This document shows positions 7,973 to 60,980 of a stretch of DNA of 64,000 nucleotides, piece after piece. The position numbers were made by a program, and so were the translations under genes. Numbering within the stretch: position 1 is the first letter of the stretch; each line of letters begins with the position of its first letter. The notes beneath the pieces were generated by a model, which worked only from the letters and a program-made list of their open reading frames with translations, was not told the origin of the DNA and made no database searches. Source of the DNA: Strix aluco (taxonomy: Eukaryota; Chordata; Aves; Strigiformes; Strigidae); assembly GCF_031877795.1 (NCBI RefSeq), contig NC_133943.1:13261001-13325000 (forward strand), given 5' to 3'.

Positions 7973-8480
7973 TCAGAGTGTCACTGCACTCACAGATTGC
8001 CGATGGCTTCCATGGTTAAAATTGTTAGCATTATTTTTAGTCAGTTTGCCACTGTTCTGTCCAGGATTTGTTACCCTGCTGGGTACAAGGGGGTAATGGC
8101 CAGAGAAAGGTCCTGCTGAAGAGTCTGTAGCAGTAGATTCTTCCTCTGCCCACCTATTAAAGAAACAGTAGCCTTCTTCAGGTGTCTGTTTCCTGAGAGG
8201 ATTCACATCAGAGGTGGAAAGTCCCTGAGTTTCTGTGTCCCCATGAGAGACAGCTGCTGCTGCTGGATGTAAAAATGGTGACACACATAAGTGGCTGATG
8301 TTTTGGTCAAGGTCATCATTAGATGCAGGTGATGCTACAGCTGCACCAGAGGTAGTTTGTTTTCTTGATCTCAATTTCTGGATTTCAAGATCCTGTTGCC
8401 CTTTGGGAAGTTTATCTAGTTGCTGTGCTTTCAGAATCAGAGATGCTCCAAAGGTTCCTCGCAGAGCAAAAATGAAGAAC
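7973..8480 (-). CDS. ATP10B: ATP10B coding exon 22 (C-terminal tail and stop)
   Basis: Residues 1298-1466 plus TGA at 7975-7973. Starts [20 protein letters not shown], then [14 protein letters not shown], aligning with human RYFFLSLQGTCGKSLISKAQ and LDKLP-type residues. The middle of the tail is poorly conserved. The last residues, [12 protein letters not shown], correspond to the human end SHRRSQSSLTI. Acceptor ttcatcag|GTT completes the split Arg. The C-terminal V-T-L fits a class II PDZ-binding pattern. Confidence 0.94.
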
Positions 8481-32400: not shown

Positions 32401-35400
32401 TACCTTTCATACACACAGAAGACTATGGTAATTACTTTTGGACCCACTGAGTTTAATTACTAACTAATCTCAGTTTGCGAGTTTATAAAAAGTTGGCTGG
32501 CATTCATTTAGAAATAAAAATGTTCTCTTTGCACTCTCGAGTGAGTCTTGATTACAGGGCAAAGCCTGAGATATCTGCAGAGGGAACCAGAAAACCTTTA
32601 CCATCTGACTTCACACCTTCACTTTCATGAATCTCTGTTAACAGGAGTCCCTTGCAAAATGGAAGCAAATCCACCCAGCTCTAAATTCAGTCAGAGGGTT
32701 CAGTAGGTTTAAATATTAATATTTAAATTAATAACATTTAGTTGCTCAGAGAGAAAAACAAGTATAAAAAAGTGACTCTTACCATTTTCCTGATGTGAAA
32801 ACTCAATTCCATCGACAGTACAGCGTCGGAATACCATTTTGTTTTCTGTTAGTGTCCCAGTTTTGTCTGAGAAGATATGCTGGATTTGCCCAAGATCTTC
32901 AGTAATATTTAGGGCACGGCACTGTATAGGCAAATCTGCTTCTTCATCATACAGGTCAATGTCATTGTGAATTAAGAAGACTTGGCCCAACTTGACTAAC
33001 TCAATGGACACATATAGAGAAATGGGGATTAAAACCTGAAAGAGAGTTTAAATTCTCAGTGAAGGGTGAGACAAGTCTTATTGCTTTCTGTCAGCAATGT
33101 CCTGGCACAGGTATATTAATAATTTTCAGAGAAAATGTTCTTCCTACAGACATATTGTAGGATGGAATAATAATAATTCAAGGGAGAAAAAAAATCCTGC
33201 ACAAAACAGCAATGGATAAACAGGGAGAGTAAGTGACAAATTTTAGACAAAATTCCTAGAATACAAGACACAAAGATGGGTCTTTCAGAGGATGCTCTTA
33301 CAAAGAACATCTTCTGGACTGAGAAGCATGCTTGCTCTTACCCTCCTGAAACTCTGAAAGGATTCACTAGCACAGACTAACTCTTAATGTAAAAAAGTTT
33401 CACAAGCAATTACTTTGCACACAAAACTTCCCACCCACTAGCTTCCCTGCCCTGAAATAATGAATTCTCAAGTTGCACAAATATTCTGTTTCAGTAATGA
33501 AGAATAATCCCCCAAGGAATCTCTGAGCAACTCTGAAAGTTATCCTCACATTTAGTTTGTATTAAAGAAATTCTGTCCACTTAAATCTCAGCAGTTACAT
33601 CAAGAAATCTGAAAAGTAAACGTGATTATTTTCCCCATCCCATAAAATGTTCTCTCCCAATTAGGCTTAATCAGACTCAGATATACAAGCATCCTACTTC
33701 TGATTTACCTTCATTCCTAAACCAGCTGAACCATACCTAGCTATTATTCCCTATTGGCAAAAATGACAATTTTGCTTCACTGTTTTCCTGAGATATTAAG
33801 TGGCGTTCTTATTTTGGAATTCTGGACATAGGCAGAAAAAAAAAAAATGCTGACATTTGGATGTAAATATCCTCTTTATTGCATACACTAGATATTCTGG
33901 AGTTATTTAAAGATATAAAGATATATAAAGATATAATACACGATCTTCATATCTATATCCTTGTGGGATTTCAACAGCAAGAAAGAAAAATCTGCAGTGT
34001 GAAAGAAAAAAAAGATACACTATTTCACACTTGGATGACTTGAAACACTCCTAGCAATCTTTTCAAATAAGGTTAAGAAGGTACTGCACAGCTATTAGTT
34101 GATATTAATTGTTCATTAGTGATTATACACAGTTTTGAATAGCTTCTTCCTTGGAGGTAACAGAGAGGTTTTTGTCTTTTACCTGCAACAGGATTATCAT
34201 TGTCAAGAACATGTAGAAACCGGCAAGAACTGGAGACAGAAAATTGCCATTTTCATCTGGGACATCATAGGGTGGATGCTCTGAGAAGGTTCCAGTCCAA
34301 ATGCCATGCCCTGTAGGAATGATATACAATACTGAAATACGCTGAGCAATAAGTGATTTGTGATTGACAAAGCTGAAATTTGCAGATATGGACTGCTATG
34401 ATATTTAAAAAGAAAGAACATTTCCAAAGCAACAGGCCCTGAGCAATGCTGTAAATCTATTGGAGAATGCAAAGTATAAGCAGAGCTCTGTAGCACATGC
34501 ATATAATTGATATGTTAGTAAGAAATGAGCAGTCGTGGATATTTTTATTCACCTCTCCTTCAGCAGGTGACCCCCAGTGCACTTAGCTCTACACAGAACT
34601 TTCATCATTCTATGTCTTGCTGCTGGAGGACTCCATCTCTACTACCTATCTTTAAAAATCCTCAGTGCTGAAGACTCCCATTCTTGTTTCTGAAATCTTT
34701 CTTATCCTTCCCGACCATTCTTGATTTCAATCTGTCTTTGTTAGAGTTCACAAAACCCCTATAATTCAGTCTGTGCAGCTCATTTTTACATTCCCTTCAA
34801 TTAAGGCATACCCCAAAACTGCTTCTTCCCCTGTGTCTTAAATATCAGCAGATATCATTGCACTACTACAACAAAGCCTCCATTTCAGGACTTAACATCC
34901 CATCATGATTACTTTGCCACCTTTCATACTGCCCTTACTGAAATAAACCACTCAAAGATGTTACTAAATTTACAGCATCAGAAACTTCACACAGAGCTAG
35001 GACAACTCAGCTTCCCTCACTGCATCATCGCTCCAGATGCTAAAACCCTTTATTAGTCCACTTTGTGGATCTAGCTCTGATAAAACTCCTGTTAACACCT
35101 GTTAAACAAGCAGTTGTTTTGCAGCATCTGCCTACTAAAATGCTGCCAAAGGAATTAAAATTATTTCATCAATACTTTCTGGCTGCTAGAGATCAGTCAC
35201 ATCTGAGCAAGGACAATTATACTCTACAAGCCACTTCTTAGCCTGATTTTTCACTGTGTGCAAGAAAAATCCTGATAACCAATCCACCATCTTCCTAGAA
35301 CCCTACACTCAGAGAAGGTTGCAAAGCAAGAACTCATGGTAGAGCTGTGAGACGTTTTGAATAGATGAAAGCTAATGGACTTGTTACTATTTCACTTAGA

Positions 35401-38400
35401 CTATGAACATTTTATATATATCTCTCTATATTTTTAAAGCTGAGTAGATAAATTGTTTTTTAAATGCTGATTTTTTCATCTGAGACCATTTTAAACCTTA
35501 AATTAAAGGACTTTATTACTCAAGGGCCCCTACACACCAGACAAGGACAAGTCTCTAAATCTACATGACAGCAGCCAGGGAACAATGAAAATAAAGTCTC
35601 TCCCTCACACAGAGCTCAGTTGTCAAACTGAAATCCCATTTCTGTGCCAAAAAAGCCCACTGCAACTTGAAGCAGTAAAATTTAAAAAGTGATTAAGTCA
35701 GTTCAATTGTTCATCTTTTTTGGATGGTCCTTACTCTAATGGCATTACACTGATGACTGACTGGTGTGTCACATCACATGCCTCCAGGGCAGGTTCATGA
35801 AAACTTGACAGGGCCACATGATTTGACTTTGTCACTACAAACTAAACCAGAGCGGTGGCACTAAGCAAGTTACCACCGAGATGGAATTGATTAAAAAAGG
35901 GTCTTTGAACACAAAACGCTCATGGCAGCCTCTGTTATCTCTTTAAAATAGTGACCCATTCAAAAGCTAGTGGACTTAAAAATTGGCCCTTTCCTCGAGA
36001 CTATGAGATCCTATTAATCCTGACCTGCCTGGGACAGATTGCAATCAGAGCTGGAAGGCAAGCAGGTGCTTATGTGCAGTGAAGATTAGCAATGTAGTAA
36101 ACTCTAGTCAGCTAGCCACAGTTACTATATTCAAGCGTGCTTACTTACAAGGACCTCAGAAAAATGCAGTCTATTCCTACCTAAACAATTAATCCATCTC
36201 ACAGCCTGCTGTAAAGGGGCTTTTGAGAAGGAAGGTAGCTGTGAAGACTGTAAACTGGCTGAATTAAGTCATGTGCAGGTCATGGGTTGTAAACTGGGTA
36301 ACTGGTTAATATCACTCCTGAACGTATTAGAGGAAGATGTTACTAAATGAAGGTGAGGTAGATCATTTTACTTCTGTTGTTATACACAAGGAACAAACAT
36401 CTACTCAGGAAGCAGATCTCGGTTGGCAACTACCAATTCCTATAATGCATTAACTCAATGGTTTTCGCTTGCTTGCTTGACACATATTTTACCACAGTGG
36501 AGATGGGTCTTATCTGAAATATTTATAACCACGGGTGAGTTTCTTCCATCTGAATTCCTCAGATTTGCCATTTTAACTTGTCTAGTTGAAAGACCAAGGA
36601 GCCTAAAGACCCCAAGAGCATTCAGCTCTAGATCTGATCTCATTCATGTCTATAAGATCAATTTTAACCACCATTTAGAAAAAAAGCAATGAAACAGAAG
36701 ATCTTTGTCAGTGCTTCATACCTACAGCTCCAACAAGACACATCATGAACAGAAGTCCCACACATAAGAAAATATCCATATTCATCCGTCGCTCTATCTT
36801 GCTGCGCTTGTAACGAGGACCATTGTTATTTAGCATGGCCTTAGTTTCATGACCTTCAAAACACAAATGAATATCATCATGTTTATGTAATACTTTGTAG
36901 TTTGTTTTGGTTTTTTTTTAAGTATTTCTCTTGCAAAATGAGAGCAGGATGCTCATGACTAATGTTAATTTGACTCTAGTTTCATTCAGTATTTTTATTG
37001 CCTATCTTCTCATTTGCCTGAATAGTAGAATATATCAGAGACTAAATCTAGAGCTTTACAGAAGACCTCTATTACATTACAGATTTCAGCTGTCATATAT
37101 TTTACTTTCCCAAAGACAGCAGATTCAGTAGCATCACAAGGTTTATATAAATATTCAAAAGCTAAAGCTCCTTCAAAATAAAAGGGAAAAGAACAATAAT
37201 ATTATATTTTTGTATTTTACAAACAACTTGATTAGGTGCTATACAAATTCCTGAAACTTACACTTGAACATTTTTCAACAGCTATTTAAAAGCAACTAGA
37301 CACATTTCATGTATTATATAAAATCCAACATGTCAGATCCAACAGTGAAAGACACTAATGTTATTTAGTTTTTTGCTATGTGGTTGTAAAGTGCTAACAA
37401 AACAGTAGGACAAGAAATAAAAAAACCTCAAATCCTTAAAACTTACTGAATTAGAATTGAGCTGGTGTATTTGTAATGGAAAAAGAAGAGTGCTGTAAGA
37501 AGCCAAGAAGCAGAAATTGCTTCTTCTATTCTATTAATATTATCTAAACTGTGGTTCCACAATTGGGATGTCTGGATATCATCTGTTGCTATATTAAATG
37601 GTATCTTTTGTGTTTATTTCTAAAGTTCTTTTCCCTGAAAATACAGAGCCTGTAGATTTCTATTCAGTTTTCATTTGTATGTGCATGATGTGTGTGAGAG
37701 GGACTGTTTTCCAAGCTACCTTTTGGCTTTCTCTAGGGAAGTGGTTTGAACCAAAAGCTGGAAGTTAGGTGCGATTCAATCATGACTGCTGGATTCATTC
37801 CAGGTTTACATCAAAGGTTATTAATTGAGGCAGAGAATGAGAGAGAAAATTACTCTCCAAGCCTTATGTTTAGGACATTCACCCAAGAGCTGGGACTCTT
37901 GGCTTCCTGGTGAATAAGTAATTCTTTACACAACCTGGAGCTATGTCAGTGGGACCAGATTATACTACCAATGCTCCTTCCTTTCCAACTCATGTCTATG
38001 TACGTACCCACTTGTTCCACACAGTTGGGTATTCAGAGTACAACTTGTGAAGCAGGAGATGTATGTTCACTCCCATACAGGCAGAACTAAGAACAAAACC
38101 CAAGTCTTCCCTTTGGTGAACAAATGCTGTAACTACCAAGCTACACAGAAGAGGAACATACTGCTGCCTGCACTTCTGTTCCTCCGGCAGCTGTGTGAAT
38201 CTTGTTCCTCACTTTTCTTTTATGTCAGGCTTAATGGAATGTTTTGTGTTGAAAACAAAACAAAGCCCTCTAATCCTTTCCAGAAAACCCTCAAAGAAAT
38301 GATGGATTTATTTCAGGAAGAAAATGGGATGAGATTTCTTTCAAAATATCAGCTCTATCATTCCCTTCCAGTTCAGCTGACCAACAGGAAAAGGACATAT

Positions 38401-41400
38401 CTGTTATACAGATATCACCTTGCAAGAAATAGAATATCAGGAAAAAGAGGAATAAACTACTTTGTCCTCCTCTAACCCTCACGGTTTCATATGCTGTGCA
38501 ACACAGCACCTCACCTACCACCCAACTAGTACCTTGTCTCTCTGAATGCCGATGAGCTTATCTAAAATTTCATTCTGGTACCTCATTACTTGAAAAACAT
38601 AAAATTCTTGCTGCTGTCCCTATCACAATGAGAAAACGACATTGGCTGTCCCTCTGTAATGAGGTTTTTGTGCATTAGTGCTATTGCTTTGTGAAGGACC
38701 ATTTGGGTAGCCATGAAAAGTGTAACCATATTTGGGTCAGATGAGAACTGCACAGGCTAAACAATCACGTTAAGTGATGACTGTACTCTTCACAAAGGCT
38801 TCCATTAGAAAGTAAGTTTGAGGAGTAATAGAGTTATAAAAATGGAGAATGTGCCATCCTATTATGTGACAGATCTTGATTGTTCAGAAAAGGTCACAGA
38901 CCATGATTAAAAGCCAGAGTATAATCAATGTCAAAGACCCCTAGAAATTAAACTGGTGCTGGTACTGGCTCAAGTGAGTCTAATTTTAGAAGAAAAAGAA
39001 TAAACTTTTATACTGACATTAACAATAAGATGTCAGCTGGAAATTGAATTGAAGACTTGAATTGAGAATGACTTTAAAACTCCAACTTTTTCTACTAGCC
39101 GCTTAAGCAACATTAACAGAGGTCCACATTAGAGTCTGTGCTGGTGGTTAAAGGAACATGCTGGGATATCTTCACTAAAGAGAAGAAAAATAAGAATCCT
39201 AACAGAAAAAGACAAGTTACTCCAATTCTGTAGGGAATGATCTCTGCAGAGATTTTTATATAGTAGTTACTTCCAAAAAATGAGTGGTGAGTTTGTCTCT
39301 AGCTCTCCTTCTCTGTCTGGTAGGCACCATCCTTACATGTGGTATTCAAAGAGACAGGCAATGAAAAACCCACACAGTGAAGGTTACTTTGGAAACATGA
39401 GAGCTATAGTCATTTGGAGTCCCCTTCTGCAGTAGTGAAATAAAACGGTCAGTTGCCAGATAAAATAATCTGGATTGTGGAGATCAATCTAAGGTAAATG
39501 ACTCTTGCAAAGATGGTGACTTCTATTTTCTCTTAGGTGGCTCAGCCTTGAACCCCTTTCTGCTAATTAGACATAAAACGGGTGATATGATTCTACTGGA
39601 AAAATAAAAATAACCAATTACTTGTTTAATTGTTTTTATTTAATGTTTTTATTTTATTTTATTTCGTTTTTTATTTTATGTTTTAAATTTTATTTAATCT
39701 ATAAATAAAGAGGGCAGCTGATATACTCTATCTGAAGCAGAAGAGGGCACAGCTGGCAAAGGCAGTGATAGATCATGCTCACTGATTAAAGCAGTGGTAA
39801 CACTCCAAAGGTGAAAGATGCTGAGAAAAAGATGAACTGACCTACTGCTGAACCTGGCACTGCTGCATTTGATCTGGGCACTGACACTGTCTTACTTGGT
39901 TAATGTCTCTACTGCATGAAATTCATGGCTGCATGGACACACTATGTCTATGTCAGCACAAACCTGTGCTGCTGCTGCCTCCTCTGCCACCTCCAGCTGC
40001 TGTTCTCACTGCCTCCTGTGTGCTGGCACTGGCACAGCTTGGCTTTGTAACAATTTTTTTTTTTTTCCAAGCAGATCTTCACCTGCATCAGTTTCTACCC
40101 TGAGGAGCCACGGAGACCTCCTTTAGGGCAGCCGTGTAGATTTTATGCCAGATAGAATTAGTATTATAATCAGAGCAGCAAAGCTGAGAGTTAAACTCAC
40201 CTTAGCAGTTCTTTACTTGTCTGGATATTTTTGCAAGATATTGTGGAGATAGCAAGATATCTGACATACACAAGGATACTGTCACTTGCCAGATACCCAG
40301 TGCAGGATTTGCTGGCTTTGGAGATGGATGAGTAATACCTTTACTTTAAAAAGTTATGTAGTTTTCCCATGTGCTACCAGTTCTTAAAACAAAATGTCAA
40401 ATTGTGATGCAATATTAGACTATATTTACTTAAAGATATTTACAGGGAAATTCTATGTTTACCTAGGTAGAAAGTACATCTTACCTGCATATATAACAAT
40501 TCCTATTGCAGCCTCAGTATTTCTGATTGTACATCCACGAAGCAAGAGGCTTTCAATGTTAAAACCAATCCGTTCATGATTTGGCTGCTCCCTAAAAGAA
40601 AGAAAATAAAATAAAGCAATGACTTTTTCTGTTCTAATATAGTATTACAGAAAATTCTTGTGTGCATGTTTGTTTCAAGTTGAAATCAAGGAACTGTGAA
40701 GGCCCTATTTTGCTTGTATTTCACTCAGCTTTAATAAAGACTCTAGGAAGAAGTTGCAGAGAAATCCAAATATCTCTTTTCAAGACCTCTTACATGGTGT
40801 GTGCATCGTGATGTCAATATGAAGCAAGTTTGGCTTTCATCTGGTACCTTATCTGGCAGATTCATTATCTTATGAATGAAGCCAGGATATATTATGTGGC
40901 TTCATTTAGATGAAATTCTTTTAGAAAGCTGGGCAGGGTTTGTCTGCTGTTAGAGGTTCAGATTAAAACGTCTTCACTCACTAAGAGCCTCTGTCTCTCT
41001 CTCTCAGCCACCAAAGGGCTTCTCATCTTTGTGAACCTCAGTTCACTTGAACAGTCTCTAGGCTGAGGCTTTTTCCTCGCTCCCACGCTGGATGGAAGAC
41101 TTTTCATTCTGGCTGAAGATGTCCCGTCACACACCAGAGCTTTCTGCTAGCAGAACAGACTGATGAGAAATTAATGGAAATTGTAAGGTCAGTGCTCCAT
41201 CAGGCAGGCAATGTGTTACCTCTGAAAATAAAAGCACAAAACTACTTTTGCTCACATTTTTTATTAAAGACTAGGGAAGGTTCCTTCTGAGATCTTTACC
41301 AAAGCTGAGATTTTTCACTTCAATCACTCCATCTGGTTTTGTTATGTAAATATCAGCATCAGAAAATATTTTTTTTCTAGAATCTTTTGCTACTTTCTAT

Positions 41401-44400
41401 TCCATATTTGGCATTGCATTTACTAGTAAACTGCAGCAGTACTTAAATGCAGGGCAAGGTTAGGTGCTACCTTAGGGCTAAGTACAGTCCTGTATCAATA
41501 TGCAGCTGCACATTATTACATGACATCAAACTAGACAAGTGAAAAAGTTTAGATGCCAACAACCTACAGCTGGTAGAATTTCAAAAAATGATGCGAGGAA
41601 CCTGTTTGTCTGGGAACCTAGATTCAGCCTTGGTGAGCACATTTAATAGAGGCCTTCTTGCATCTCCTTCAGTAGAATCTGCTACGCTCAGGCATGTCAG
41701 ATGAATGTCACTAAGTTTGTTATAATTTTTAGCAGAAAGAGTACTGCTACCATTTTATAGCAAGGCAATAGAGCCTAAAGAGTTTATTAAGGGTTCTTGG
41801 AGAAAAATGTAACATGCTCCAAGTAATTTGTGTTTACAAAATAGCTCAAACAGCAGCAGACCAAAGACAGAAAGTCTACTAACTGTTAGTAAGTAATTTT
41901 CACTAGCAAATTTCATCTACCCCTGAAGCAGGGAGAGAAAAGCAGATAATTTCATATTCCACCATGCAGGTGAGATAATAGGAATTTTCCAAAAGAGATT
42001 TCTGTTACAGACTTTCAATAGAGAGTTGAAGATTTTGAAGACACTCCTGGGTCCTAAGGGTGTGTATTTGTGTGTGTTTTCTTGTGACATATCACCTACA
42101 TTTCTATAATCTCAGTGCTCTTGTGCCGTATTACAGCAGGCTAATTGGAAGGATTGCTTCAATTTAGATTATACCCAGTGGTCCTCAAAGCCATCAACCA
42201 CAGCCAGCAATCAATAGAAACTTGACCTCTTTCTCCCTTTTAAGATATCAGAATAGAGAGGAAATGACATTGCTATTAGAGGCATCATTCTTACAGGGCA
42301 TAAATTCTCAAAACCAGACTAAGCACAGTCAGTGCTAATGGGTGAGAACCCTCTGGTTTACTCCTGTCAGAGGATCTGGCCATTTGTAACTACTCCAGGT
42401 ACAACACTCGCTGCATTCTTGCAGAGACATTAACTCCTAGCTTAGATATTAGTAAATTTAACAAAGCCAGGGCATGGATAGGAATGCTAGCAGAGTCATA
42501 CAGTTAAATTATTTGCATAACGTGGGGCATGCATTTGGTCTGGGGCAGTAGGTATTTCGGACAATTCTCTGGTGTGATGTGGGAATCAGCATGGACCAAT
42601 GACTGCTCTGAAGAGCGTCCTGGGAAACAGCTGCCCTGTACTGGAGGGTAAGAGAATATTATGACATGAGCCATGCCATACAAATTGGCCTTATAGCCAG
42701 AGAATGGGCTTAAATCTGCTGAATTTTCTAGTATAGATTTCCCTGTTAGACCTGTGCCAGAATTATTTATTGAAGAAAGAACAGAAGGAACACAGGATAT
42801 GGCTTTTTCCTCACATACATAGGCTTACACCTTCTTGCTTGCTTGCTTTTTCTAGCTGTAAGAAGAAAATCTGATCTGTTTGTTAGATCCTGGATACCTT
42901 TTCCCAATGGCCATAAAGATGAAGAAACTAGAGGCATGCAGCTGAGTATCTTTAACATTAGGAAGGATTTAGATTTAAAATCCAGCCTAGACTAACCAGG
43001 TCAAACGTAAATGAGCTTATGGCTGAATTCTGAAAAGAGCTGAAACCTTGTGAGAACAGTTTCTATGAAACAACTGCAAATTCAATGTCAAGCCTCGGTT
43101 CTGCCTTGCCTTGAAACACAGATTCCAGTCTACATTTCATATTGACTTCTGAATCCAGGAATAGATAATAGTGACATTCATCATTTTCTGCAAAATAGGT
43201 TCTTTCCATCCAGTTCCTCCAAGAGAAATACTAAAGTTCAGATACAAAATGCATTTATAAATAACAAATACTTACATGTACCCTTTGAATTTATTGAGAT
43301 CATTGTTAGGCATTTCACAGATGATGGTGTTTTGGAAAAATTCGGGTTCAAACAAGGCATTCTGCAAGAGGAAACACACTGAGAATGAGTGTCAAATCCA
43401 ATGAGTACTTGAAATGTTATACACTACAAGCAGCTAAATATAGTCCACCAGGATAGTTGGGGGCTGGAGCACTTGCCCTACAAGGAAAGACAGAGGGAGT
43501 TTAGCTCATTCAGGATGAAGCAAAGCTTCAGAGGGGCTAAGTAAAGATTTGAGATTTTCCTCTCTTGGATTAACAACTGGTTAAATTAAATGAAGAAAAT
43601 GCTGTGTATTGGACAAGGCATCACAGATGCCAATTAGTGAAAATATCTGTCTTCATTTAAAGTGAATGTAACAAATTGATCAAATTATTTATGAAAGAAA
43701 ACCAGCCTTCAATCAAAAGCAAGCTCAAATGAAAATAATTTCAGGATTTATTAGGATTTTGAAATATGTTAGAAGAGTTATGTTAGAAGAGTTATGTTCA
43801 GTGGCCAGGATGGTATAATCATAAGAGCCCACACATTTGAATAAACATTCAAATAGACTAAAAGCAAGACTAATAGTGCAAAAAAAAAAAAAAAAAAAAA
43901 GCCCCCCCCAAATGAACAAAGAAACAAACAAATAGAACCAAAAGAGGGAAGGCAGTAGAATCAGTCCAAACCTCTGGGAGAGACAAAAGAAGACAGAGAT
44001 TTTCAGGATAAGTGCTCGCTCTAAAAGAGCTTGGAGCTGAACTGAGACACAGAATTTTGCTTGATTTCCCCTGTGTTCAGGGAAACAGGCCTGGGTTTTG
44101 GACTGCATGAAGCAGTTTGGAAAGTAGACAGCATGAGAGGTACTTGACTGCCATAAGTGGTGTTTTTTTTCTTAACTGAAAAAATACATAAAACTTTGAT
44201 TTTAGATTCAGAAAATGTAATAAAAATACGATGTGAGGAATGTGAAAGAGAATCGTTATTGCTGTGCTATAAAATCTTTAAAAGAACTGAAACTCACTTT
44301 AATCCAAACTCCTCCCATTAGAAAAGCTGGAAATCAAGTCTGCTGCTGGGTCTCCCTACCTTATTCTACAGCAAGAGAGACTTCAGAGATTAGACTCCTT

Positions 44401-47400
44401 CAGAAACTGCAAATCCTGGGAATCCTTCACTGGAATTCACAAAAACTTTGCCAGACTGCAAGAGGACTTCCTTACACTGCCAGTCCTCAAGTCTCAATTT
44501 TTTCTTCACTGTTCTTTAATTTTTACATTATTTTCTCTCTCCTGTTCTTTTTTTTTTTTTTTTTTTTTTCTGAGCAATACATATATTCTTTTTTTAGGAA
44601 ATATATATAAAATATCTAAGTACAATCAAGTAGAGAATCTGATCTAAAAAAAAAAAGTTGGAGGAAATATAAAAGCTTGATGAATATAAAGGCATTTTGT
44701 TATACCTTCTGACCCATGTGGCTGAATATTTTCAGAATTTCTTTTAAGAGACATTGTTCATCTCTGCTGAATCTTGTTTAACTCTGTGAACTCAACAGGA
44801 AAACCAGCACATATTTGGTTGTGCTAGAAATATTTGTACAACAGGAAAGCAGGAAGATTCAAAAGGCACCTGGAGAGCTCATTACTAACGAAGAAAACAT
44901 ATAGGCTTCTAGCTAGAAAGTGATAGAGAAGGATGATTTTTTTTGTTTTGATGACAAGAATTTTACATTTGAAAATTCAAGTTAGAAAATGGCATAAGAG
45001 GAAGAAAATAACAATCCTTCCTCACAGTCTTGAGGTGAATTCAATATTCCTAAGCATATCCTAAACCAAAGAACTAGCCACAGTTCATACGTACTTCCTC
45101 CCTCCTTAAAGAGTCACACTTTATAGACATAATTAAATCTGAGTAAGTTATGTAGCACATAAATCACAGGACTAAACAAACCTCAAAGAACAAGGAAGGA
45201 GTTGGCACACTAAATTGCACATATGATATTTTTAGCCAACGTACTGTTTACACCAATACGTTAAAGTAACAGGGTAATATAGTTGAATATTAAACCCTGA
45301 ACTTCCTGAGCACTGGTTATCACCATGGTCAGAACTGCATTCCACTCTGCCAATGTAACAAGATTTTGTAAGTATAAACACTTCCGGGCATACAGTTTGT
45401 CTAAATAACTCAAAATCTAAATAAAAAAAACCATGAATAGGCAGTGCGAAGCATAACTCGGCATGCAGGGGTTTTCTGATTTAAAGAAAGACTTCCTCAT
45501 AATATAAATGACTGAGGCAAAATTTGCATTTTGTATGATAGTTGAGCACTCTGTTTTCCTCTAAAAGCAAAAATACAAAACCTAATGTGTAAACTATGTG
45601 ACACAAATGCAGCATTTTAATTTTTCTATTTAAGTAGCTAGTTTATTGGGTTTTTTTGCTAAATCTCTACATATTAAAAATTTTCAGAGTTTCTCAGGAA
45701 AAAAACTTCTCCCTAGTCATCATTGGAAAGCACTGGAAAAGGTATGCTTTACCTGAGAAAACCCTTAATTGTGCAAGTAACGCTGTAGTACAGTACCTGA
45801 CCACAACTGGTCATGGAAATGGTGTACTTTAATAAATCTGGTTGCTCACTGGAAGCTGTGTCCCACCCACCAATAACCCCGAAAGATCTTCCTAATGGCA
45901 CTATTACTAATGGCTAAACAAGTGGATGTAATTCCTAGAATTACCTACCATGTTTTGGGATTTTCTGTCTACTGGAGTGATTCCAATAAAACAAAATATT
46001 TCTCTTTACATGGTACAACTCCTTAAACTTGTTCTGTGTTATTTGAAAAACTGAAAAGATATGTAACAAGTACAACTCTCCTTAAGTCATATTTTCTTCT
46101 TTACTTCAGGTTTATCAAACATGAGTGAAGAGAAAATACCAGTAAAGTGTTTGTAAAAAGGAAATGATAATGGCCTATGGAAAAAAATACAGTGATTTTA
46201 AGCACTCAAAACTGAATCTCTGCTAACAATCAAACTGATGTCAAACATATCACTTTATTTAATTTACCTTGACTCCCTATTCAATTGTTAATTATACTCC
46301 TATAAAAGGTTCCATTATTTCATTACAACTTAGTGTGCCTTAGAGCAGTTCCTAGTTGAACTGCCATACACCTGCCTGCCTAGCAAATGAGTAATGGTAC
46401 ATCAGCTGTAACAGAGAAGCAAAATCCATAAGGAAGCCCATGGCCACTTTGGAAGGGGGGCCATGAGCTCTCTTCCAATTTCCGTGCAGAAATAATTCAC
46501 TCGGTAGTAGTGGCTTTGCTGTGGGGCGCGCTCTGTGCTGTGACAACCTGGAGGGTCCAGATGGCTGATACATAGGAAAGACTTGCTGCTGTCCCAAACG
46601 TGGTACTGAGTGTTGCTGCTTAAGCATCTGCTGATGCAGTTTGCTGCAAACAGCTACTCTCTGAGCTAATACTCCTTTTTATACAGCCATCCCTGTGTCA
46701 GAAAAACAAAAATCTTCTAGGGCAAACTGCTGCTTTCTGCACAGGGCATTAGCTCCAACAGAAAAACGCTTTCATAGCTGTATCAGCGCAACCAGACCAC
46801 CAGAACTGGTGCAGTTCATGGCTGGAACTGGTGTGAAAATGGGCCCAGACCGCCCTGCACTGCATCGGCTGCATTTTCAGCAGACTTACCTGGCTGGAGA
46901 AACCCATCACGACGTGTCGTTGTTTAAGGTTGGTCTCCCCATCGAGGTTGGCAGTTTCCAAGTGACAGATCCCGTTCTGGTCAGAGGAGTACAGCAGTAG
47001 GATATCAGCTGGGATGGTCTCGTTACACTGAAGCTGTACAAAATCCCCCACTCGGACATCTTTCCAGCATTTCTCAACATAAGCACGTTCTTCCCTGTTG
47101 CATTAAAAACATGTCATGGGTGAATAGTGACATCAGGAAGGCAGGCCTCCTGGATAGTGGGGCTTTAAAAAAAACAAACTGGGGTGGTGGCATATTGCTG
47201 TATTTAATAGTATCATTTCACCATATATCACATTCAAATAAAATCTTTAAACTACAATAAAAGTTCTCTTTCATTTTAGCATTAGCCCTATAATGTCCAC
47301 AGCAAAAGATAGAAAGTTGTTCAGAATAAGAGGTGTTTAAAAGTACCTTATTCAAACATTTAAACATTTCACAAAAAAAATTATTAATTAATTAATTAAA

Positions 47401-56400: not shown

Positions 56401-59400
56401 ATAAAAATAAAAACCTGACAAACACATGCAAGAGAAACAAACAGAAATGACAGCACTGTGTGATAAAAGCCAGAGTTCTGCAAGATCTTGCTTGTGAAAG
56501 CGTACGTTATATAAAGCACTGTTGATTAATTTGAGGGATGACAGGCAACATTCACGGAGATGGAAACTTTTGCTCTTCTGACTCCCAGATGTGATATTTT
56601 AACAGAAAGAAGTTATTTTCTACTTTGCTGAGAGAACAGTTTTGATAGAATAAAACATAATTTTCAAACTTCTGAAAGTCCTAAAAGCAAGAGGTCATGA
56701 AACATTTTGAAGAAGTGAGCACAGACACATGTAGTTAATTCATTTAGAGATGACTGAACAGAGGCATATACTACCATCTCCCATTTTTAACCTGCATTTT
56801 TACAGTGTTATTTTACATGCAACCTAGTAAAAGAAATACATCTGAAAGCTAGTCTACAGTGTAGAGTATAAAGTTAAACGTAGTTCAAAGAGCTACATTT
56901 TTAAGAGGTTTCTTGGCATCTAAGCATGTAAATAGGTCCCATGACAGATCTTGTTCTGTGCTACTGACAGAATTAAATCCCCTTGAAAATTCCTTAGAAA
57001 TCTGGGTGCTTATAGCTATTTAAGCACCTGTTTTCACTGCACTCCATGCTTAAGAGGTGATAGCCACACCAATACCATGAAATTCAAACTTACCTTCCCA
57101 GTCTGAAAATGAGATTTAAACAAAAAAAGAAGTATCTTTCTCTGTATCAGAACAAATACCAGGTCATATATAGTCACTATGACTTTTTCTTGTTTCACTT
57201 AATCATTGTGATTTTCCAGCAGTTAATTATTAATTATTTTAAACAAAAAGACTCGCCATTGAGTCTCAAGCCAACTTGTTTTGTAATAAAAGCTGTATGA
57301 AACTCACCTGCTGTAAATGTAGCATCCCATATGATTGATTTCTTTGTCTAATTTATACCGTCGAAAATCCTCCCAAGCATCTTTAATGGCTGTAATGGCC
57401 ATTATAACACAAATTGGGATCACAGAGACTTCTGGTTGGAAAGCATTCACCACTGGCACAAAATTCAGCAGTGCAATGACCACAAAATAAATATTGGCAA
57501 AGCGGTGAAACTGCTCATAGATATTTTTAGGGAAGAAAGACAAGATGGTATACTTTGTGGTCTTAATTTTATTGGAGTCATAGTATCTGTTTGGATTTTC
57601 CTTCCGCTTCTTACTTCCAAAGGGCAAATTGGAGATGATCACTCGTTTATTTTCATTTTTCTTCTTTCTTTTCTTCACTTTTCCTCTCTTCTCCAGCTCT
57701 TCATTTTGGATTTCAGTGTCTGGAGCAGCACATCGGCAGCAGGTTTCTTTGAAAAAATGTTTTTTCCATATCATTCTAGAGAAGCAGCCTGGAACACTTT
57801 TCCTTGACATCTTGTTTTCCTCTCAAAAAGCAGTCTCAAGTTGGAAACCAACAAAGTTAGAAGAGTTCAATAATCCAAATAAACTCCCAAGTGTTGGAGA
57901 GAAGAGTCAAGATGTCTGAAGCCCAGGGCTGCCTCTCCTTCGACTCCAACCTCCACCTGCCTAGGGACAGGTATCGTCCTGACTCAGCTGCACCAGGCCC
58001 TATAGCCTGCTGGGGAAGCTGCACCTCTTCTATGACAAAAACATCCTGAATGTTTTGTTATTCCTATTAGCATACACCCGGAGGCTCCATTCAGAGCATT
58101 TCCCTGGCATCAACTATCTGCTCACATGAAGTGTCTCTGTTTCAATACAGACCAGCGACAAAGCTAAGAACACACACACAATTTTCACAGTTCACTCTGT
58201 GAGTTTCAGAATCACTTTATAAGCCTGGGAGTTGCCAGGAAGTTCAAAGGTAATGGGCAGAGCTCTGTGTCCCAGAAGTCAACAGAAGATTGCTAGAAGC
58301 CTCAGTACAGACAGTATTTCTTTCTTTTACTTCCTCTATCTACTAGTTGTTTTCATGACCATAGAATGGATTATTAAACAAACAAACAACACCCATCCCC
58401 CCAAACCAAGCAAACCTGTGATTTGGTAGTTGCGCAAATTATACATAGACATAAGCAATTGGAGGGCAATTTACCCAGATTACCCCTCAGCCTGGTCCTT
58501 CTCCTCTGATAGACCCCCTGCTTCTGGACACCCAAAGCGTCACTCTCTCACCCAGTAATCCCTTCCAGCCTCTCATTTCTTCTTCCCCATTGGTCCTTGT
58601 GCCTCTGACACATACGTAAGTAAGCACAGATGAGGGCTCATTTCCAAGAGAGCTAATGAGGTGTGTAAAAACCATAGTAATTTTTTCTCTATGGCCTGGG
58701 TTTAAGGAGAGGTGAAAAAAGAAAGAGACCCAAACTTTTAAACATCTTTTAAATGAAAACTCCTATCTATTGCATTATGTAGTGACAAGCTAAGTAGTCT
58801 CAAGTCAAGTTAGTACTTGGACAAGAAATTCTGATGAAATCGAAATGTTGCAATAAGAATTGCACATGAAAATATTTCTTCCTTCTGAGTCAGTACTGAG
58901 CAAACATCACAGCTTACTGTGGGTGTTGTACCATCTCCAAAGCGAAACCGTGTTGTATCGATCACCTGTGCTTACTGGAAGTCCTATAAAATTTTTTTAA
59001 GCTCCTGCTTACGCTTCACCTTGAATAAAGCTGATTATTAATTTTTGTATTAATGGTTTTAGTGTGAAATGTCTGAAAGACATTGCTCCAATTTGTTAAC
59101 AGCCCCAGTAATCCTTTACAGACTTGAACACATTTAATTTTTCCTCCAGATCCTTCGGCTACCTGGAGAGGATGTTGTGTGTGTTGGCAAGCTGGTTTGG
59201 AAACTTGGAATGAAAACTTGTATATCAGCACACACTGCTGTGATATGAAACAAAACTTCAATGATACCAGGATGACTTAAGTGAGATAAACGAGGCATTT
59301 TTAAAGGCAGAACAAAACTCTTTTATAACAGCTTTTCCAAACTTACTGTACACCAAAGGGTCAGTGGGGGAATTTCTGCAAAATCAGATGAGCAGTTTCC

Positions 59401-60980
59401 ACCACATCAAACACAAAGAAAAATAATTGGTTTAGTTTACTTACTTGTCATACACCCTGGTTTTAGAGAAGTTTATTGTCTTATCAAATAGGTATTTTCT
59501 ATGGTCTTCAATAGCATCCTTAATCATACTGGCAAGCAGCACCACAATCAGAGGCAACATAGTAATCTCCTTGTGGAAGACTTCCACTTGTGGGAACCAG
59601 TTCAGAACCACCAGAAAGAAGAAATAAAGATTACCCAGCCTGAAAATGTATAAAATAAAAGTAGTCAGAAATCAGAATGTGTCCTTTTCTTAATGAACAT
59701 TCCCCATTTTGTGTCAAAGGAACATTAATTATTTTACTCCTCTACCCTCCTCTTCCTTTCCCAGAATTAATTAATCAGTTGCTTAACTGAGATGCTAATT
59801 TTTTCTTTAGAAGAGCCTGTGAGATACATTTTCATAATGCTATAGCTACCTCCATTTTCCCACATATTACAAACACTTTTTATCTCTAGGAGCTAAAACT
59901 TCTTTAATGATTCCCCCCGCCTCAGTGTTGGACATAAGCACCAAACAAAAGCCCCCCAAAAACTTAAAAAAACCAACCAACGTAACAGAACGGGTGTAAA
60001 AACCCACATGTTCAGAATTATGAAAATATCCCCATCAGGAATCCATGAAGGATTCCACAGGTGAAAGGTCAAATTATGAATGTGTAAATCTAATATACTG
60101 AATGAAAATTTCAAAGCCAGATATGGATATACAACTTTCATTTATCTTTATCATAATGATATTTTCCTGGGCATCTTACTGACACGATTCATTATGCAGA
60201 GGGGCTACATAATTTCAAACCAGCACTTGGGAAGAAACCTGACCTACCACTTGTATATACATGTATACTGTTTGTAAGTTGGTAGACGAAGTAAATTGAT
60301 GCCATTAAAAATGTACCAAAATTAATCTATGAGCCTCTGAAATCTACAGAACTTCAAAGGTGTCTCAACACATCAAATGAGTGTCTTTTAATATTCTTAA
60401 AAATTAGAGGTTTATTAAACACAGAAACAGAGGGATTTTTAAATAAAAACCTGAAACTTTTACACAGAAAACCGTTCCAACATTCAAACAAGAAAATTGG
60501 CTACAGCATCAGTTAAGCACACCTAGTGTTTGTTTCAAACCTCCAGTTCAGTGTGAATCATATGACATTTGGTTACAAATAATCATCACCTAAATTTTAG
60601 CAATGTGGCAACTACAAAAGCAGCCCTTCTCCATCACCCTCAAATATCGCTGTTTCAGAGAGAGTTATTAAATCTCATGTGTCTCTGAATGACTTTTTTT
60701 TTTACCTGTGAAACTGCTCAAAAAGATTTTGGGGCAAAAAAGTGAGCCATGTGTATTTTGTGGTCTGTATTCTGTTTCCAGAATAAAACACAGAAGCTTG
60801 TTTCCAGTCTTTCCACTGTCTCCCATTGTCAGGAAACACAATCCTCCATTTGTTTAACTTGAGTTTTGGTTTGTCTCTGACAGAAAACAGCAGTGGTGTT
60901 GATTCTGATCGAGTCTGGGAGGAACTTTCAGCTCCTAGTCGCTGCCAACGGTACAAAGCAGAATCCACAGACAAAGCCAT
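7973..60980 (-). CDS. ATP10B: ATP10B, class 5 P4-ATPase flippase (whole coding span, 22 exons)
   Basis: ATP-driven lipid flippase that moves glucosylceramide and phosphatidylcholine to the cytosolic leaflet. In mammals it acts in late endosomes and lysosomes with the subunit CDC50A/TMEM30A (family knowledge). Joining 22 exons gives 4401 nt and 1466 residues, against 1461 in human. Seen in order: cytosolic N-terminus 1-91; M1-M2 about 95-135; actuator DGET 208-211; M3-M4 about 312-390 with PISL 380-383; DKTGT with phosphorylated Asp433; a long linker 455-650; nucleotide domain with [13 protein letters not shown] and KGAD 779-782; TGDK 903-906; GDGAND 1039-1044; M5-M10 about 1090-1297; C-terminal tail to 1466. 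The N-terminus (MALSVDS), the linker and the tail match ATP10B rather than ATP10A or ATP10D. All introns are GT-AG and phases agree throughout. Exon coordinates are listed separately. Confidence 0.96.
8481..11491 (-). other. Intron 21
   Basis: About 3.0 kb before the last coding exon. A locally GC-richer stretch at about 9320-9990 has overlapping ORFs in several frames (up to 140 codons) without recognisable homology. A15 tract near 8898. Nothing else. Confidence 0.8.
11492..11679 (-). CDS. ATP10B: ATP10B coding exon 21 (M9-M10)
   Basis: Residues 1236-1298: [40 protein letters not shown] and [18 protein letters not shown]. Human has [22 protein letters not shown] at the same place. Acceptor gcttacag|ACC. 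The donor is ccaag|gtttga, a weak match to the consensus, splitting the Arg codon (AG|G). Confidence 0.94.
11680..12126 (-). other. Intron 20
   Basis: About 0.45 kb. No feature recognised. Confidence 0.85.
12127..12231 (-). CDS. ATP10B: ATP10B coding exon 20 (loop and start of M8)
   Basis: Exactly 35 codons, residues 1201-1235: [20 protein letters not shown] then [15 protein letters not shown]. Separated from exon 19 by an intron of only 109 nt (12232-12340), the shortest in the gene. Acceptor ttttctag|ACA, donor cgtgg|gtatg. Confidence 0.96.
12341..12421 (-). CDS. ATP10B: ATP10B coding exon 19 (M7)
   Basis: Exactly 27 codons, residues 1174-1200: [20 protein letters not shown] and CFFVPYL. 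Human reads [27 protein letters not shown]. Acceptor cctgcag|ATA, donor atttg|gtaag. Confidence 0.95.
12422..14211 (-). other. Intron 18
   Basis: About 1.8 kb. Short alternating purine-pyrimidine (TG/CA, TA) runs near 13785-13830. No other feature. Confidence 0.85.
14212..14412 (-). CDS. ATP10B: ATP10B coding exon 18 (M5-M6)
   Basis: Exactly 67 codons, residues 1107-1173: [54 protein letters not shown] and [12 protein letters not shown]. Near-identical to human ATP10B. Acceptor ctccacag|AGC, donor cagag|gtatg. Confidence 0.96.
14413..15781 (-). other. Intron 17
   Basis: About 1.4 kb, AT-rich. No feature recognised. Confidence 0.85.
15782..15907 (-). CDS. ATP10B: ATP10B coding exon 17 (leading into M5)
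   Basis: Exactly 42 codons, residues 1065-1106: [42 protein letters not shown]. HGHWxYxRL marks the start of M5 in P4-ATPases, and KN within M5 contributes to the lipid path (family knowledge). Acceptor ccaaag|GCT, donor atgtg|gtaag. Confidence 0.96.
15908..16445 (-). other. Intron 16
   Basis: About 0.54 kb. No feature recognised. Confidence 0.85.
16446..16522 (-). CDS. ATP10B: ATP10B coding exon 16 ([11 protein letters not shown])
   Basis: Residues 1039-1064, [16 protein letters not shown] and [16 protein letters not shown] binds Mg2+ near the phosphorylated aspartate. Acceptor ttctag|GTG, donor tgcag|gtatc. Only 77 nt, yet perfectly conserved in the motif. Confidence 0.96.
16523..17708 (-). 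other. Intron 15
   Basis: About 1.2 kb. No feature recognised. Confidence 0.85.
17709..18021 (-). CDS. ATP10B: ATP10B coding exon 15 (P domain)
   Basis: Residues 935-1039: [19 protein letters not shown], a variable stretch, then [38 protein letters not shown] and VMTLSIG. CCRxTPLQKS is invariant in the family. Acceptor ctcacag|GAA, donor aatag|gtacc, phase 1 so that the Gly of GDGAND is split across the junction. Confidence 0.96.
18022..20852 (-). other. Intron 14
   Basis: About 2.8 kb. A 102-codon plus-strand ORF at 20252-20560 has no recognisable homology. No repeat or RNA gene recognised. Confidence 0.8.
20853..21037 (-). CDS. ATP10B: ATP10B coding exon 14 (P domain, TGDK)
   Basis: Residues 873-934: [45 protein letters not shown] and TINTENK. 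TGDK (903-906) belongs to the phosphorylation domain. Acceptor gcccag|GAG, donor ataag|gtgag; ends on a codon boundary. Confidence 0.96.
21038..22511 (-). other. Intron 13
   Basis: About 1.5 kb of AT-rich sequence without recognised features. Confidence 0.85.
22512..22638 (-). CDS. ATP10B: ATP10B coding exon 13
   Basis: Residues 831-873: [20 protein letters not shown], then [22 protein letters not shown]. Human has [28 protein letters not shown] at the same place. Acceptor atgcag|GTC, donor gctgg|gtagc; the donor is slightly off consensus at +4 and +5. Confidence 0.95.
22639..23358 (-). other. Intron 12
   Basis: About 0.72 kb. No feature recognised. Confidence 0.85.
23359..23465 (-). CDS. 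ATP10B: ATP10B coding exon 12
   Basis: Residues 795-830: [36 protein letters not shown] split over basic and conserved parts. The [10 protein letters not shown] block is a nucleotide-domain signature of P4-ATPases. Acceptor ttcacag|CTG, donor aagaag|gtagg. Confidence 0.95.
23466..23987 (-). other. Intron 11
   Basis: About 0.52 kb, with a short GTTT repeat near 23662-23680. No other feature. Confidence 0.85.
23988..24573 (-). CDS. ATP10B: ATP10B coding exon 11 (nucleotide-binding domain, KGAD)
   Basis: Largest exon of the set, residues 600-795. First half is a Ser/acidic-rich, poorly conserved linker with a Cys pair cluster ([10 protein letters not shown], 658-667). Second half is highly conserved: [55 protein letters not shown] and [19 protein letters not shown] (779-782) lies in the ATP-binding pocket. 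Acceptor tttctag|GTT, donor aaag|gtaac. The linker is shorter than in human, which accounts for part of the length difference. Confidence 0.96.
24574..25128 (-). other. Intron 10
   Basis: About 0.55 kb, with a T-rich run near 24688. No other feature. Confidence 0.85.
25129..25308 (-). CDS. ATP10B: ATP10B coding exon 10
   Basis: Exactly 60 codons (residues 540-599): [20 protein letters not shown] through [25 protein letters not shown]. DFFLALxICNTV is the P4-ATPase segment at the start of the nucleotide-binding domain. Acceptor cttccag|GAA, donor caaagg|gtaat; both ends are on codon boundaries. Matches human EKDVTPD...TTEPRQR. Confidence 0.95.
25804..25856. repeat. Compound tetranucleotide microsatellite (AATA)n(CATA)n
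   Basis: About six AATA units followed by about seven ACAT/CATA units, uninterrupted. Likely length-polymorphic between individuals. Confidence 0.95.
27960..28975 (+). mobile_element. CR1 non-LTR retrotransposon, 3' fragment
   Basis: Begins in the reverse-transcriptase domain: [12 protein letters not shown] is readable at about 27963-28000. It continues through the C-terminal ORF2 region ([19 protein letters not shown] at about 28260-28320) and the 3' UTR (arrgttgcccagagaggctgt-type block near 28860), ending near the CR1-type terminus attctgtgat at about 28967-28976. A gap near 28190 joins RT to the downstream part, and stops and frameshifts interrupt the frame. It is 5'-truncated and dead, as most CR1 copies are. 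Inserted opposite to ATP10B transcription. Confidence 0.92.
31646..31881 (-). CDS. ATP10B: ATP10B coding exon 9 (linker, Arg/Ser-rich)
   Basis: Encodes residues 461-539, starting [16 protein letters not shown]. It includes the basic Ser-rich stretch [10 protein letters not shown]...[12 protein letters not shown], which parallels the human QSARVPIQG...RQRS region specific to ATP10B. Several RxxS sites could be phosphorylated (inference). Acceptor tttacag|CC, donor cgtt|gtgag; ends on a codon boundary just before EKDVTPD. Confidence 0.94.
31882..32782 (-). other. Intron 8
   Basis: About 0.9 kb between the DKTGT exon and the linker exon. Nothing recognised; plus-strand ORFs here are short and unrelated to known proteins. 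Confidence 0.8.
32783..33035 (-). CDS. ATP10B: ATP10B coding exon 8 (M4 PISL and DKTGT phosphorylation site)
   Basis: Encodes residues 377-461. Starts [18 protein letters not shown] with the PISL motif (380-383) in the middle of M4, then [18 protein letters not shown] and [16 protein letters not shown]. Asp433 is the catalytic phosphorylated aspartate. Acceptor ctttcag|GTT, donor aatg|gtaag, phase 1 out. All catalytic residues are intact, so the gene should encode an active ATPase. Confidence 0.97.
33036..34182 (-). other. Intron 7
   Basis: About 1.1 kb, AT-rich, with a short ATATAAAG-type repeat near 33910-33940. No other feature. Confidence 0.8.
34183..34310 (-). CDS. ATP10B: ATP10B coding exon 7 (M3-M4 loop and start of M4)
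   Basis: Encodes residues 334-376: the lumenal loop ([16 protein letters not shown]) and [13 protein letters not shown] at the start of M4. The loop contacts the CDC50 subunit in solved P4-ATPase structures (family knowledge). Acceptor ctacag|GGC, donor tgcag|gtaaa. Ends on a codon boundary. Confidence 0.96.
34311..36721 (-). other. Intron 6
   Basis: About 2.4 kb of unique-looking AT-rich sequence. No feature recognised. Confidence 0.8.
36722..36853 (-). CDS. ATP10B: ATP10B coding exon 6 (M3)
   Basis: Encodes residues 290-334: [19 protein letters not shown], then ERRMN and the hydrophobic segment M3 ([18 protein letters not shown]). Acceptor ttgaag|GTC, donor gtag|gtatg. Nearly identical to human ATP10B in the cytosolic part; one Ser-to-Asn change in NNSGPRYKRS. 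Confidence 0.96.
36854..40484 (-). other. Intron 5
   Basis: About 3.6 kb. A T/A-rich low-complexity stretch built on TTTTA/TTTAT units lies at about 39618-39710. A 142-codon plus-strand ORF at 38047-38475 matches no family I know and is probably chance. Confidence 0.8.
40485..40591 (-). CDS. ATP10B: ATP10B coding exon 5
   Basis: Encodes residues 254-290 ([15 protein letters not shown]...IGIVIYAG), the end of the actuator domain leading towards M3. LLLRGCxxRNT is a P4-ATPase hallmark. Acceptor ttttag|GGAG, donor gcag|gtaag; phases 2 in, 1 out. Confidence 0.96.
40592..43275 (-). other. Intron 4
   Basis: About 2.7 kb of AT-rich sequence with no recognised exon, repeat family or RNA gene. Confidence 0.8.
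43276..43361 (-). CDS. ATP10B: ATP10B coding exon 4
   Basis: Encodes residues 226-254 of the actuator domain ([20 protein letters not shown] and following). Acceptor cttgcag|AAT, donor tacat|gtaag, ending in phase 2. The family usually has CEKPNNxL; here it is CEMPNNDL, a conservative change. Confidence 0.95.
43362..46889 (-). other. Intron 3
   Basis: About 3.5 kb. Contains a minus-strand TATA-like motif at 46675-46683 followed by a 91-codon ORF (46627-46352) of unknown meaning, a 22-nt T tract at 44548-44569, a 21-nt A tract at 43880-43900 followed by a C8 run, and a short tandem repeat of a 14-mer near 43766-43800. Nothing else was recognised. Confidence 0.8.
46675..46683 (-). promoter_or_regulatory. 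TATA-like motif upstream of an intronic ORF
   Basis: Minus strand TATAAAAAG, about 48 nt before an ATG at 46627 that opens a 91-codon ORF ending at 46352. The ORF is Gln/Pro/Arg-rich at first and matches nothing I know. It sits in intron 3 just 3' of exon 3. Confidence 0.15.
46890..47094 (-). CDS. ATP10B: ATP10B coding exon 3 (actuator domain, DGET)
   Basis: Encodes residues 157-225, [18 protein letters not shown] through to MGFSSQ. Contains [22 protein letters not shown] (208-211) is the P4-ATPase dephosphorylation loop equivalent to TGES of other P-type ATPases. Acceptor aacag|G, donor ccag|gtaagt. Its leading G completes the split codon from either exon 2 (AA+G, Lys) or the alternative first exon (AG+G, Arg), making it the shared acceptor for both isoforms. 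Confidence 0.96.
47095..57307 (-). other. Intron 2, long 3' part
   Basis: About 10.2 kb with no recognised exon. It holds simple sequence: a (TTAA)n/A-rich patch near 47380-47410, a 23-nt A tract at 47672-47694 preceded by a 74-codon plus-strand ORF, a T tract near 51533-51545, and a small hairpin at about 52740-52775. Short ORFs across it do not resemble known proteins. Confidence 0.8.
57308..57810 (-). CDS. ATP10B: Alternative ATP10A-like first coding exon of ATP10B
   Basis: Single open exon of 503 nt encoding 168 residues. ATG at 57810-57808 has A at -3; an in-frame TGA lies 15 nt upstream. Residues 1-80 are cytosolic and strongly basic (41-56), with a CCRC cluster at 24-27. Then follow [13 protein letters not shown]...EQFHR, M1 with [23 protein letters not shown]2 and [11 protein letters not shown]. 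The M1-M2 block resembles ATP10A (ALLNFVPxVNAFQP, INHxGC) far more than exons 1-2 of this gene. The donor gcag|gtgag leaves 2 nt, the same phase as exon 2, so it joins exon 3 in frame ([14 protein letters not shown]) and predicts a 1477-residue protein. There is no internal stop or frameshift. Alternative reading: a remnant of a tandem or paralogue duplication; the intact frame and matched phase argue against that. Confidence 0.8.
57811..59444 (-). other. Intron 2, part upstream of the alternative first exon
   Basis: About 1.6 kb between canonical exon 2 and the alternative N-terminal exon. If the alternative exon has its own promoter, this stretch should hold it. A TATA-like sequence on the minus strand lies at 58215-58223. 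There is no CpG-rich segment and no other recognisable feature. Confidence 0.6.
58215..58223 (-). promoter_or_regulatory. Possible TATA box upstream of the alternative first exon
   Basis: Minus strand reads gcTTATAAAGtg, about 405 nt before the alternative ATG at 57810. A TSS about 30 nt downstream would give an unspliced leader of about 375 nt. This rests on a short motif in AT-rich DNA, so chance is a strong alternative. Confidence 0.18.
59445..59639 (-). CDS. ATP10B: ATP10B coding exon 2 (canonical M1-M2)
   Basis: Encodes residues 92-157: M1, the short lumenal loop and M2, ending KTRVYDK. Clear match to ATP10B ([13 protein letters not shown] in the M1-M2 loop; MIKDAIED at the end of M2). 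Acceptor ttttcag|GCTGGG, donor gacaa|gtaagt; both ends are in phase 2. The first codons read R-L-G-N where other family members have R-(W/F/P)-A-N. The acceptor and phase leave no alternative that restores the usual residues. Confidence 0.94.
59640..60705 (-). other. Intron 1 of ATP10B
   Basis: About 1.07 kb between coding exons 1 and 2, with gtaaa donor and tttcag acceptor. AT-rich, with homopolymer runs. No coding, repeat or RNA feature was recognised in it. Confidence 0.9.

Follow-up and report, generated by a model that had tools for sequence, protein, structure and literature searches.

ATP10B of Strix aluco contains an additional, intact exon, here termed B2, which lies between exons 2 and 3 on the minus strand and is predicted to encode the N-terminal tail and M1-M2 hairpin of a P4-ATPase of the ATP10A type. 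Taken as a whole, the data are probably explained by B2 being an alternative first coding exon that gives rise to an ATP10A-headed ATP10B, ATP10B having kept both heads of a two-headed ancestor. The window, by which the complete 64,000-nucleotide stretch analysed is meant (C13:13261001-13325000 of a 1.41 Gb genome), contains no N and holds ATP10B on its minus strand, from exon 1 through to the C-terminal codons. In chicken, ATP10B is located on chromosome 13 (PMC12111742). The canonical head, encoded by exons 1 and 2, is referred to as B1. The exon model was guided by a provisional human ATP10B sequence; its last exon was split by the aligner (8480-8285 and 8224-7976) though the frame is open throughout, a break that is probably artefactual and leaves the head unaffected.

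Coordinates of the ATP10 head exons and associated features (positions without a contig prefix are those of the window).
Feature	Coordinates	Strand	Basis
B2, candidate alternative ATP10A-type first coding exon of ATP10B	57308..57810	-	translation, genome search, exon 3 join, tree and quartet test
B2 splice donor CAG|GTGAGT, 9/9 to consensus MAG|GTRAGT	57302..57310	-	sequence scan
B2 polybasic stretch, residues 41-60, 11 K/R in 20	57631..57690	-	aligns with ATP10A head polybasic stretch
B2 M1 gate residues N-F	57460..57465	-	aligned with Dnf1 G230/A231
TATAAAG, possible promoter word, may be chance	58215..58221	-	sole TATA[AT]A match in 1.5 kb upstream of B2 ATG
Exon 1 of canonical ATP10B (N-tail including the dileucine motif ESTPLL, as far as FEQFHR)	60706..60980	-	guide: provisional human ATP10B sequence
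Canonical ATP10B exon 2 (M1-M2, B/D type; end phase as B2; 195 bases)	59445..59639	-	
ATP10B exon 3, acceptor shared by the two heads	46890..47094	-	
ATP10B exons 4 to last, shared body	7976..43361	-	
ATP10A one-exon head	C2:64600140-64600582		genome search
ATP10D two-exon head	C4:29310718-29310986 and 29311748-29311942		

The exon is 503 bases long. From its ATG at 57810 it comprises 167 codons and two further bases, encoding an 83-residue N-tail followed by M1-M2, within a minus-strand open frame of 172 codons (57822-57304). The ATG has an A at position -3, an in-frame stop lies 12 bases 5' of it, and a second stop directly follows the donor (AG|G TGA), so that open frame and exon end together. 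The donor is a perfect match to the consensus, compared with 7 and 8 of 9 positions for the canonical ATP10B head exons. Perfect donors account for 3 of the 22 donors scored, B2 being counted among both, and the minus strand of the window holds five such sites, three of them at ATP10B exon ends. A preliminary description made from the letters alone had proposed an intact ATG-initiated exon of 168 codons with these bounds, and the open frame agrees, codon 168 being completed by exon 3 (AG+G, arginine; after canonical exon 2, AA+G, lysine). The in-frame join to exon 3 in the phase of exon 2, also proposed there, was reproduced at 47094, and B2 joined to the modelled downstream exons translates into 1457 residues with 0 stops, a reading under which the locus could, as suggested, make an ATP10A-type head on an ATP10B body. 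The exons that follow B2 encode the ATP10B body, so B2 is not joined to an ATP10A body. Exons 1 and 2, placed about 2 kb upstream in that description, lie 1.6-2.9 kb away.

Four AG sites occur in the 100 bases 5' of B2, each with a G before the AG; acceptor-like AGs are found 105-353 bases 5', past the in-frame stop (e.g. 57957 and 58164). B2 is read as a first coding exon because it has its own ATG, an in-frame stop precedes that ATG and there is no convincing acceptor nearby. The elements by which an alternative first exon can be recognised in sequence are present, namely a start codon, an open frame and a donor that is phase-matched to the competing exon. The region upstream of B2, with a CpG observed/expected ratio of 0.23 and one TATA-like word, shows no clear promoter. 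No Rfam match was obtained at the gathering threshold.

A search of solved structures with B2 returned 20 sequences at E<=0.01, all labelled phospholipid-transporting ATPase (some as "probable"). The best of these was yeast DNF2 (E 2.3e-24), and this homology rules out a chance open reading frame. When the other three heads were used as queries, the best relative varied by head, and an older head type was not indicated. One scan each of the viral and the bacterial/archaeal collections confirmed 0 relatives among 18 and 53 pattern matches, respectively, as expected.

The head class of B2 was analysed over a gap-free core of 85 residues, from TTKYT to the end of the exon. Identity within types was 60/85 for B2 and ATP10A and 55/85 for B1 and ATP10D; across types it was 38/85 (B2-B1), 42/85 (B2-ATP10D), 42/85 (ATP10A-B1) and 48/85 (ATP10A-ATP10D). 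Nine diagnostic sites favour the split of ATP10A and B2 from B1 and ATP10D, against 0 and 1 for the other two splits, and a quartet AU test rejects both alternatives (p 0.008 and 0.010), in line with the ATP10A resemblance noted in the preliminary description. In a tree to which the cores of DNF1, DNF2, 6lcp, 9dzv and ATP8B1 were added, the branch uniting ATP10A and B2 received support of 94.1/84 and that uniting B1 and ATP10D 88/72. Homology between B2 and ATP10A extends into the tail, through the polybasic stretch (13 K/R in 20 in the ATP10A head) and the motif RV[IV]xSNL, with 55% identity over 136 residues. On these sequence comparisons B2 would be classed as a P4-ATPase N-terminal region with M1-M2, and core identity, diagnostic sites, the AU test and its one-exon layout would make it an ATP10A-type head. 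The extreme N-terminus of B2 is longer and cysteine-bearing, with a ten-residue stretch that has no counterpart in the aligned ATP10A head; this stretch is a possible palmitoylation site.

A whole-genome search with B2 gave at least 13 matches at E<=0.001 (29 candidates scored). Among the 13 listed, six are heads of ATP10A, ATP10B or ATP10D, and seven weaker matches (E 2.4e-8 to 2.9e-4) are presumably other P4-ATPases. The best non-self match listed is a one-exon head on C2 (E 6.7e-45, 56% identity over residues 35-167) whose locus carries the ATP10A body, and the likeness to ATP10A first noticed from the letters was thereby borne out. Within the stretches read, ATP10A has a one-exon head, ATP10D a two-exon head and ATP10B both. 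The intron after FEQFHR, described as missing from B2, is indeed absent there and from ATP10A, and is present in ATP10D and canonical ATP10B. Since ATP10A itself has no such intron, retrocopying is not needed to account for B2; a retrocopy of ATP10A mRNA was rejected, there being no intron in the ATP10A head to lose and B2 terminating precisely at an exon boundary that has a donor. Post-head exon lengths are alike in ATP10B, ATP10A and ATP10D (205, 86, 107 and 132, then 128/134/128, respectively, then 253), the C-terminal pieces of ATP10A after 64715570 being unsure, as is the end of ATP10D (stretch read to 29346000). The GC3 of the ATP10A head core is 0.92 and that of B2 0.45, a contrast that may reflect different promoter settings. 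Frames resembling a retroelement protein, which we take to be CR1-like, lie in introns of ATP10B (window 28158-28489, minus strand) and ATP10D (near C4:29315731-29315880).

Comparisons with human proteins were made with provisional sequences. On that basis, the head cores of the bird and human proteins are identical at 73/85 positions in ATP10A, 76/85 in ATP10D and 55/85 in canonical ATP10B, whose core (60980-60706 and 59639-59445) is fast-changing relative to the heads of its two paralogues. The distance between B2 and bird ATP10A is 0.443, compared with 0.175 between bird ATP10A and the provisional human ATP10A, and the clade of bird and provisional human ATP10A excludes B2 with support of 96.3/94. 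Because these two group without B2, the split of B2 from the ATP10A head points to an origin before the bird-mammal split, if the provisional human sequence is right. Of the origins suggested in the preliminary description, an ancient duplication therefore stands, given the provisional human sequence, a late capture from ATP10A falls away, the distance to B2 exceeding that between the bird and provisional human ATP10A, and an early capture is possible. Body identities are about equal among the paralogues: 669/1221 (54.8%) for ATP10A-ATP10B, 588/1032 (57.0%) for ATP10A-ATP10D and 593/1041 (57.0%) for ATP10B-ATP10D. Ratios of head to body distance were 0.49 for ATP10A-B2, 0.71 for B1-ATP10D, 0.63 for ATP10A orthologues and 1.54 for ATP10B orthologues, values that rest on 85 residues and do not separate "paralogue age" from "somewhat later".

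Purifying selection on B2 is supported by pairwise codon data from one bird's B2-ATP10A pair. The two cores differ at 21, 11 and 57 first, second and third codon positions, respectively, the last being 57 of 85. The dN/dS proposed as a check was answered in part: the NG86 dN of 0.20 indicates constraint, and saturation of dS leaves no ratio (no dS was obtained by NG86 in the 6 pairs; YN00 returned a value for 1/6 and LWL85 for 2/6, in neither case ATP10A-B2). When an unconstrained exon was simulated at 0.3 substitutions per site, 38/2000 replicates were free of stops and 3/2000 reached 60/85 identity; at 0.5 substitutions per site the counts fell to 9/2000 and 0/2000. At 0.02 neutral substitutions per site 1430/2000 exons stay open, so that a recent loss of B2 use would be invisible. 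Relative-rate counts gave 8 changes in B2 against 2 in ATP10A with ATP10D as outgroup, and 7 against 3 with B1, numbers that are too few to decide, with 15 undecided in each.

Under the preferred explanation, transcription would begin at a second start upstream of B2, possibly with a noncoding leader exon, and B2 would be spliced to exon 3 in place of canonical exons 1 and 2. The product would consist of the ATP10B body with an ATP10A-type N-terminal tail and M1-M2 hairpin, would lack the dileucine motif and would carry an ATP10A-like polybasic tail; its M1 gate would read N-F in place of N-W. The aligned sequences agree with this outline: the residues at the positions of Dnf1 G230/A231, an entry-gate site according to PMC11460456 and PMC12424579, are N-F in B2 and ATP10A and N-W in B1 and ATP10D; a match to [DE]xxxL[LI] is found in the tail of B1 (ESTPLL) and in none of B2, ATP10A or ATP10D. 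Homology would assign sorting signals to the N-tail and a share of the lipid entry gate to M1-M2. The glutamine at Pro-4 of M4, described in PMC12424579 as essential for glucosylceramide (GlcCer) transport by ATP10A and ATP10D, is kept in the shared ATP10B body. ATP10B reportedly has a dileucine-like motif (PMC11460456) and ATP10A an N-terminal polybasic cluster (PMC13212812), and the N-terminal cytoplasmic region of ATP10B is reported to take ATP10D from the plasma membrane to lysosomes (PMC10910339).

The B2 isoform is predicted to reside at the plasma membrane instead of lysosomes, and its substrate range to shift from GlcCer plus phosphatidylcholine (PC) toward PC. Since GlcCer is listed alongside PC among the lipids moved by ATP10A (PMC11460456, PMC12424579), the predicted shift may be a matter of degree. 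According to work cited in PMC13212812, a swap of the ATP10D termini left flippase activity unchanged, and exchange of the tail alone may therefore alter location only.

For the origin of B2, differential retention of two ancestral heads is favoured. Both heads would have existed in an ancestral vertebrate ATP10 gene before the vertebrate duplications, after which the copies would have dropped one or the other: the one-exon head would survive in ATP10A, the two-exon head in ATP10D and both in this ATP10B. A remnant of the missing head was sought in 200 kb around ATP10A and 40 kb around ATP10D and was not found, the best matches beyond the known head exons (E 0.02 and 0.17) being low-complexity or chance; the two-head ancestor is therefore unproven. 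The same negative result speaks for the rival view, in which ATP10B took an A-type head from ATP10A after the paralogue split, through a segmental duplication or by shuffling of the exon into its intron, and then kept it as an alternative first exon. Such a capture would agree with the ATP10A head being the nearest to B2 and likewise consisting of one exon, and the head/body ratio of ATP10A-B2, below that of the ATP10A orthologues, fits an early capture as well. However, on the tree with the provisional human sequence the capture must predate the bird-mammal split, and the heads of B1 and ATP10D are comparably diverged to those of B2 and ATP10A, as expected for equally old head types; we consider a capture somewhat unlikely. 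Decay of a formerly used B2, now untranscribed or slowly degenerating, would be compatible with the slightly higher number of changes in B2 and, had use ceased within the last 0.02 or so substitutions per site, with a frame that in most simulations is still open. The whole open frame, ATG, perfect donor and phase are nevertheless all intact, and the protein has changed slowly over a long time, making this reading rather improbable.

Two further readings concern the nature of the exon itself. Its resemblance to ATP10A could in principle come from a misplaced piece of that gene, as the preliminary description had cautioned, but ATP10A has its own head on C2, which differs from B2 at about 44% of residues in the aligned region, and the window is free of N; an assembly or annotation artefact is thus excluded for practical purposes. 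B2 might instead be an internal, mutually exclusive exon, given its position between exons 2 and 3 and the acceptor-like sites farther upstream. The available part of PMC5740500 reports a cluster of mutually exclusive exons in ATP10B in all Eutheria and not in marsupials, without naming the exon. Against an internal exon stand the length of B2 (503 bases, that of exon 2 being 195), the presence of a separate ATG, preceded in frame by a stop, and of an N-tail of its own, and the G that precedes all four AG sites in the 100 bases upstream. The absence of the reported cluster from marsupials (PMC5740500) also sits poorly with B2, which seems older than the bird-mammal split, marsupial loss being possible. 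Because PMC5740500 treats terminal exons apart, the Eutherian cluster is probably something other than B2, and we regard an internal exon as very improbable.

Alternative first exons are common. Among the open-literature records listed, no description was found of a B2 isoform or of a flippase in which tail and gate helices are naturally exchanged; gene models predicted automatically for bird ATP10B may already include B2. If B2 is used, M1-M2 and the sorting tail would have been swapped in nature on a body that stays the same, Pro-4 glutamine included. The gate features that separate the GlcCer-only human ATP10D from ATP10A, which strongly prefers PC, remain unclear according to a review (PMC12424579), and direct comparison of the two ATP10B isoforms would then test this entry-gate question. 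In people, ATP10B is associated with the risk of Parkinson's disease (PMC7244618); use of B2 would mean that ATP10B in some vertebrates can have two products with different homes, and that specialisation of the ATP10 paralogues went by loss of alternative exons. More tentatively, it is possible that the ancestral vertebrate ATP10 was a two-in-one gene with switchable gate-address modules, of which ATP10A and ATP10D each froze one once the genome had duplicated, and that ATP10B of at least some birds still switches between a lysosomal GlcCer/PC pump and a plasma-membrane PC pump.

Among its relatives in the same genome, B2 shares with the ATP10A head a single exon, a polybasic N-tail, the stretch beginning RV(I/V)x, the end phase and 60/85 core residues; it differs in its location, the ATP10A head lying at ATP10A and being GC-rich, and in its longer, cysteine-bearing extreme N-terminus. 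With canonical exons 1 and 2 it has in common the position in the protein, the end phase and exon 3, whereas those exons are two in number, carry a dileucine motif and an N-W gate and match it at 38/85 core positions. Splice variants of ATP11C and other flippases likewise alter a terminus and with it the location of the enzyme, but in ATP11C-type variants the C-terminal tail is altered, unlike B2, in which the N-terminus with the gate helices is exchanged. In the ATP10B-ATP10D laboratory chimera described in PMC10910339, swapping an ATP10 head moves the enzyme between plasma membrane and lysosome, as is predicted for B2; that chimera is man-made and involves the cytoplasmic N-terminal region only, whereas B2 would swap M1-M2 as well.
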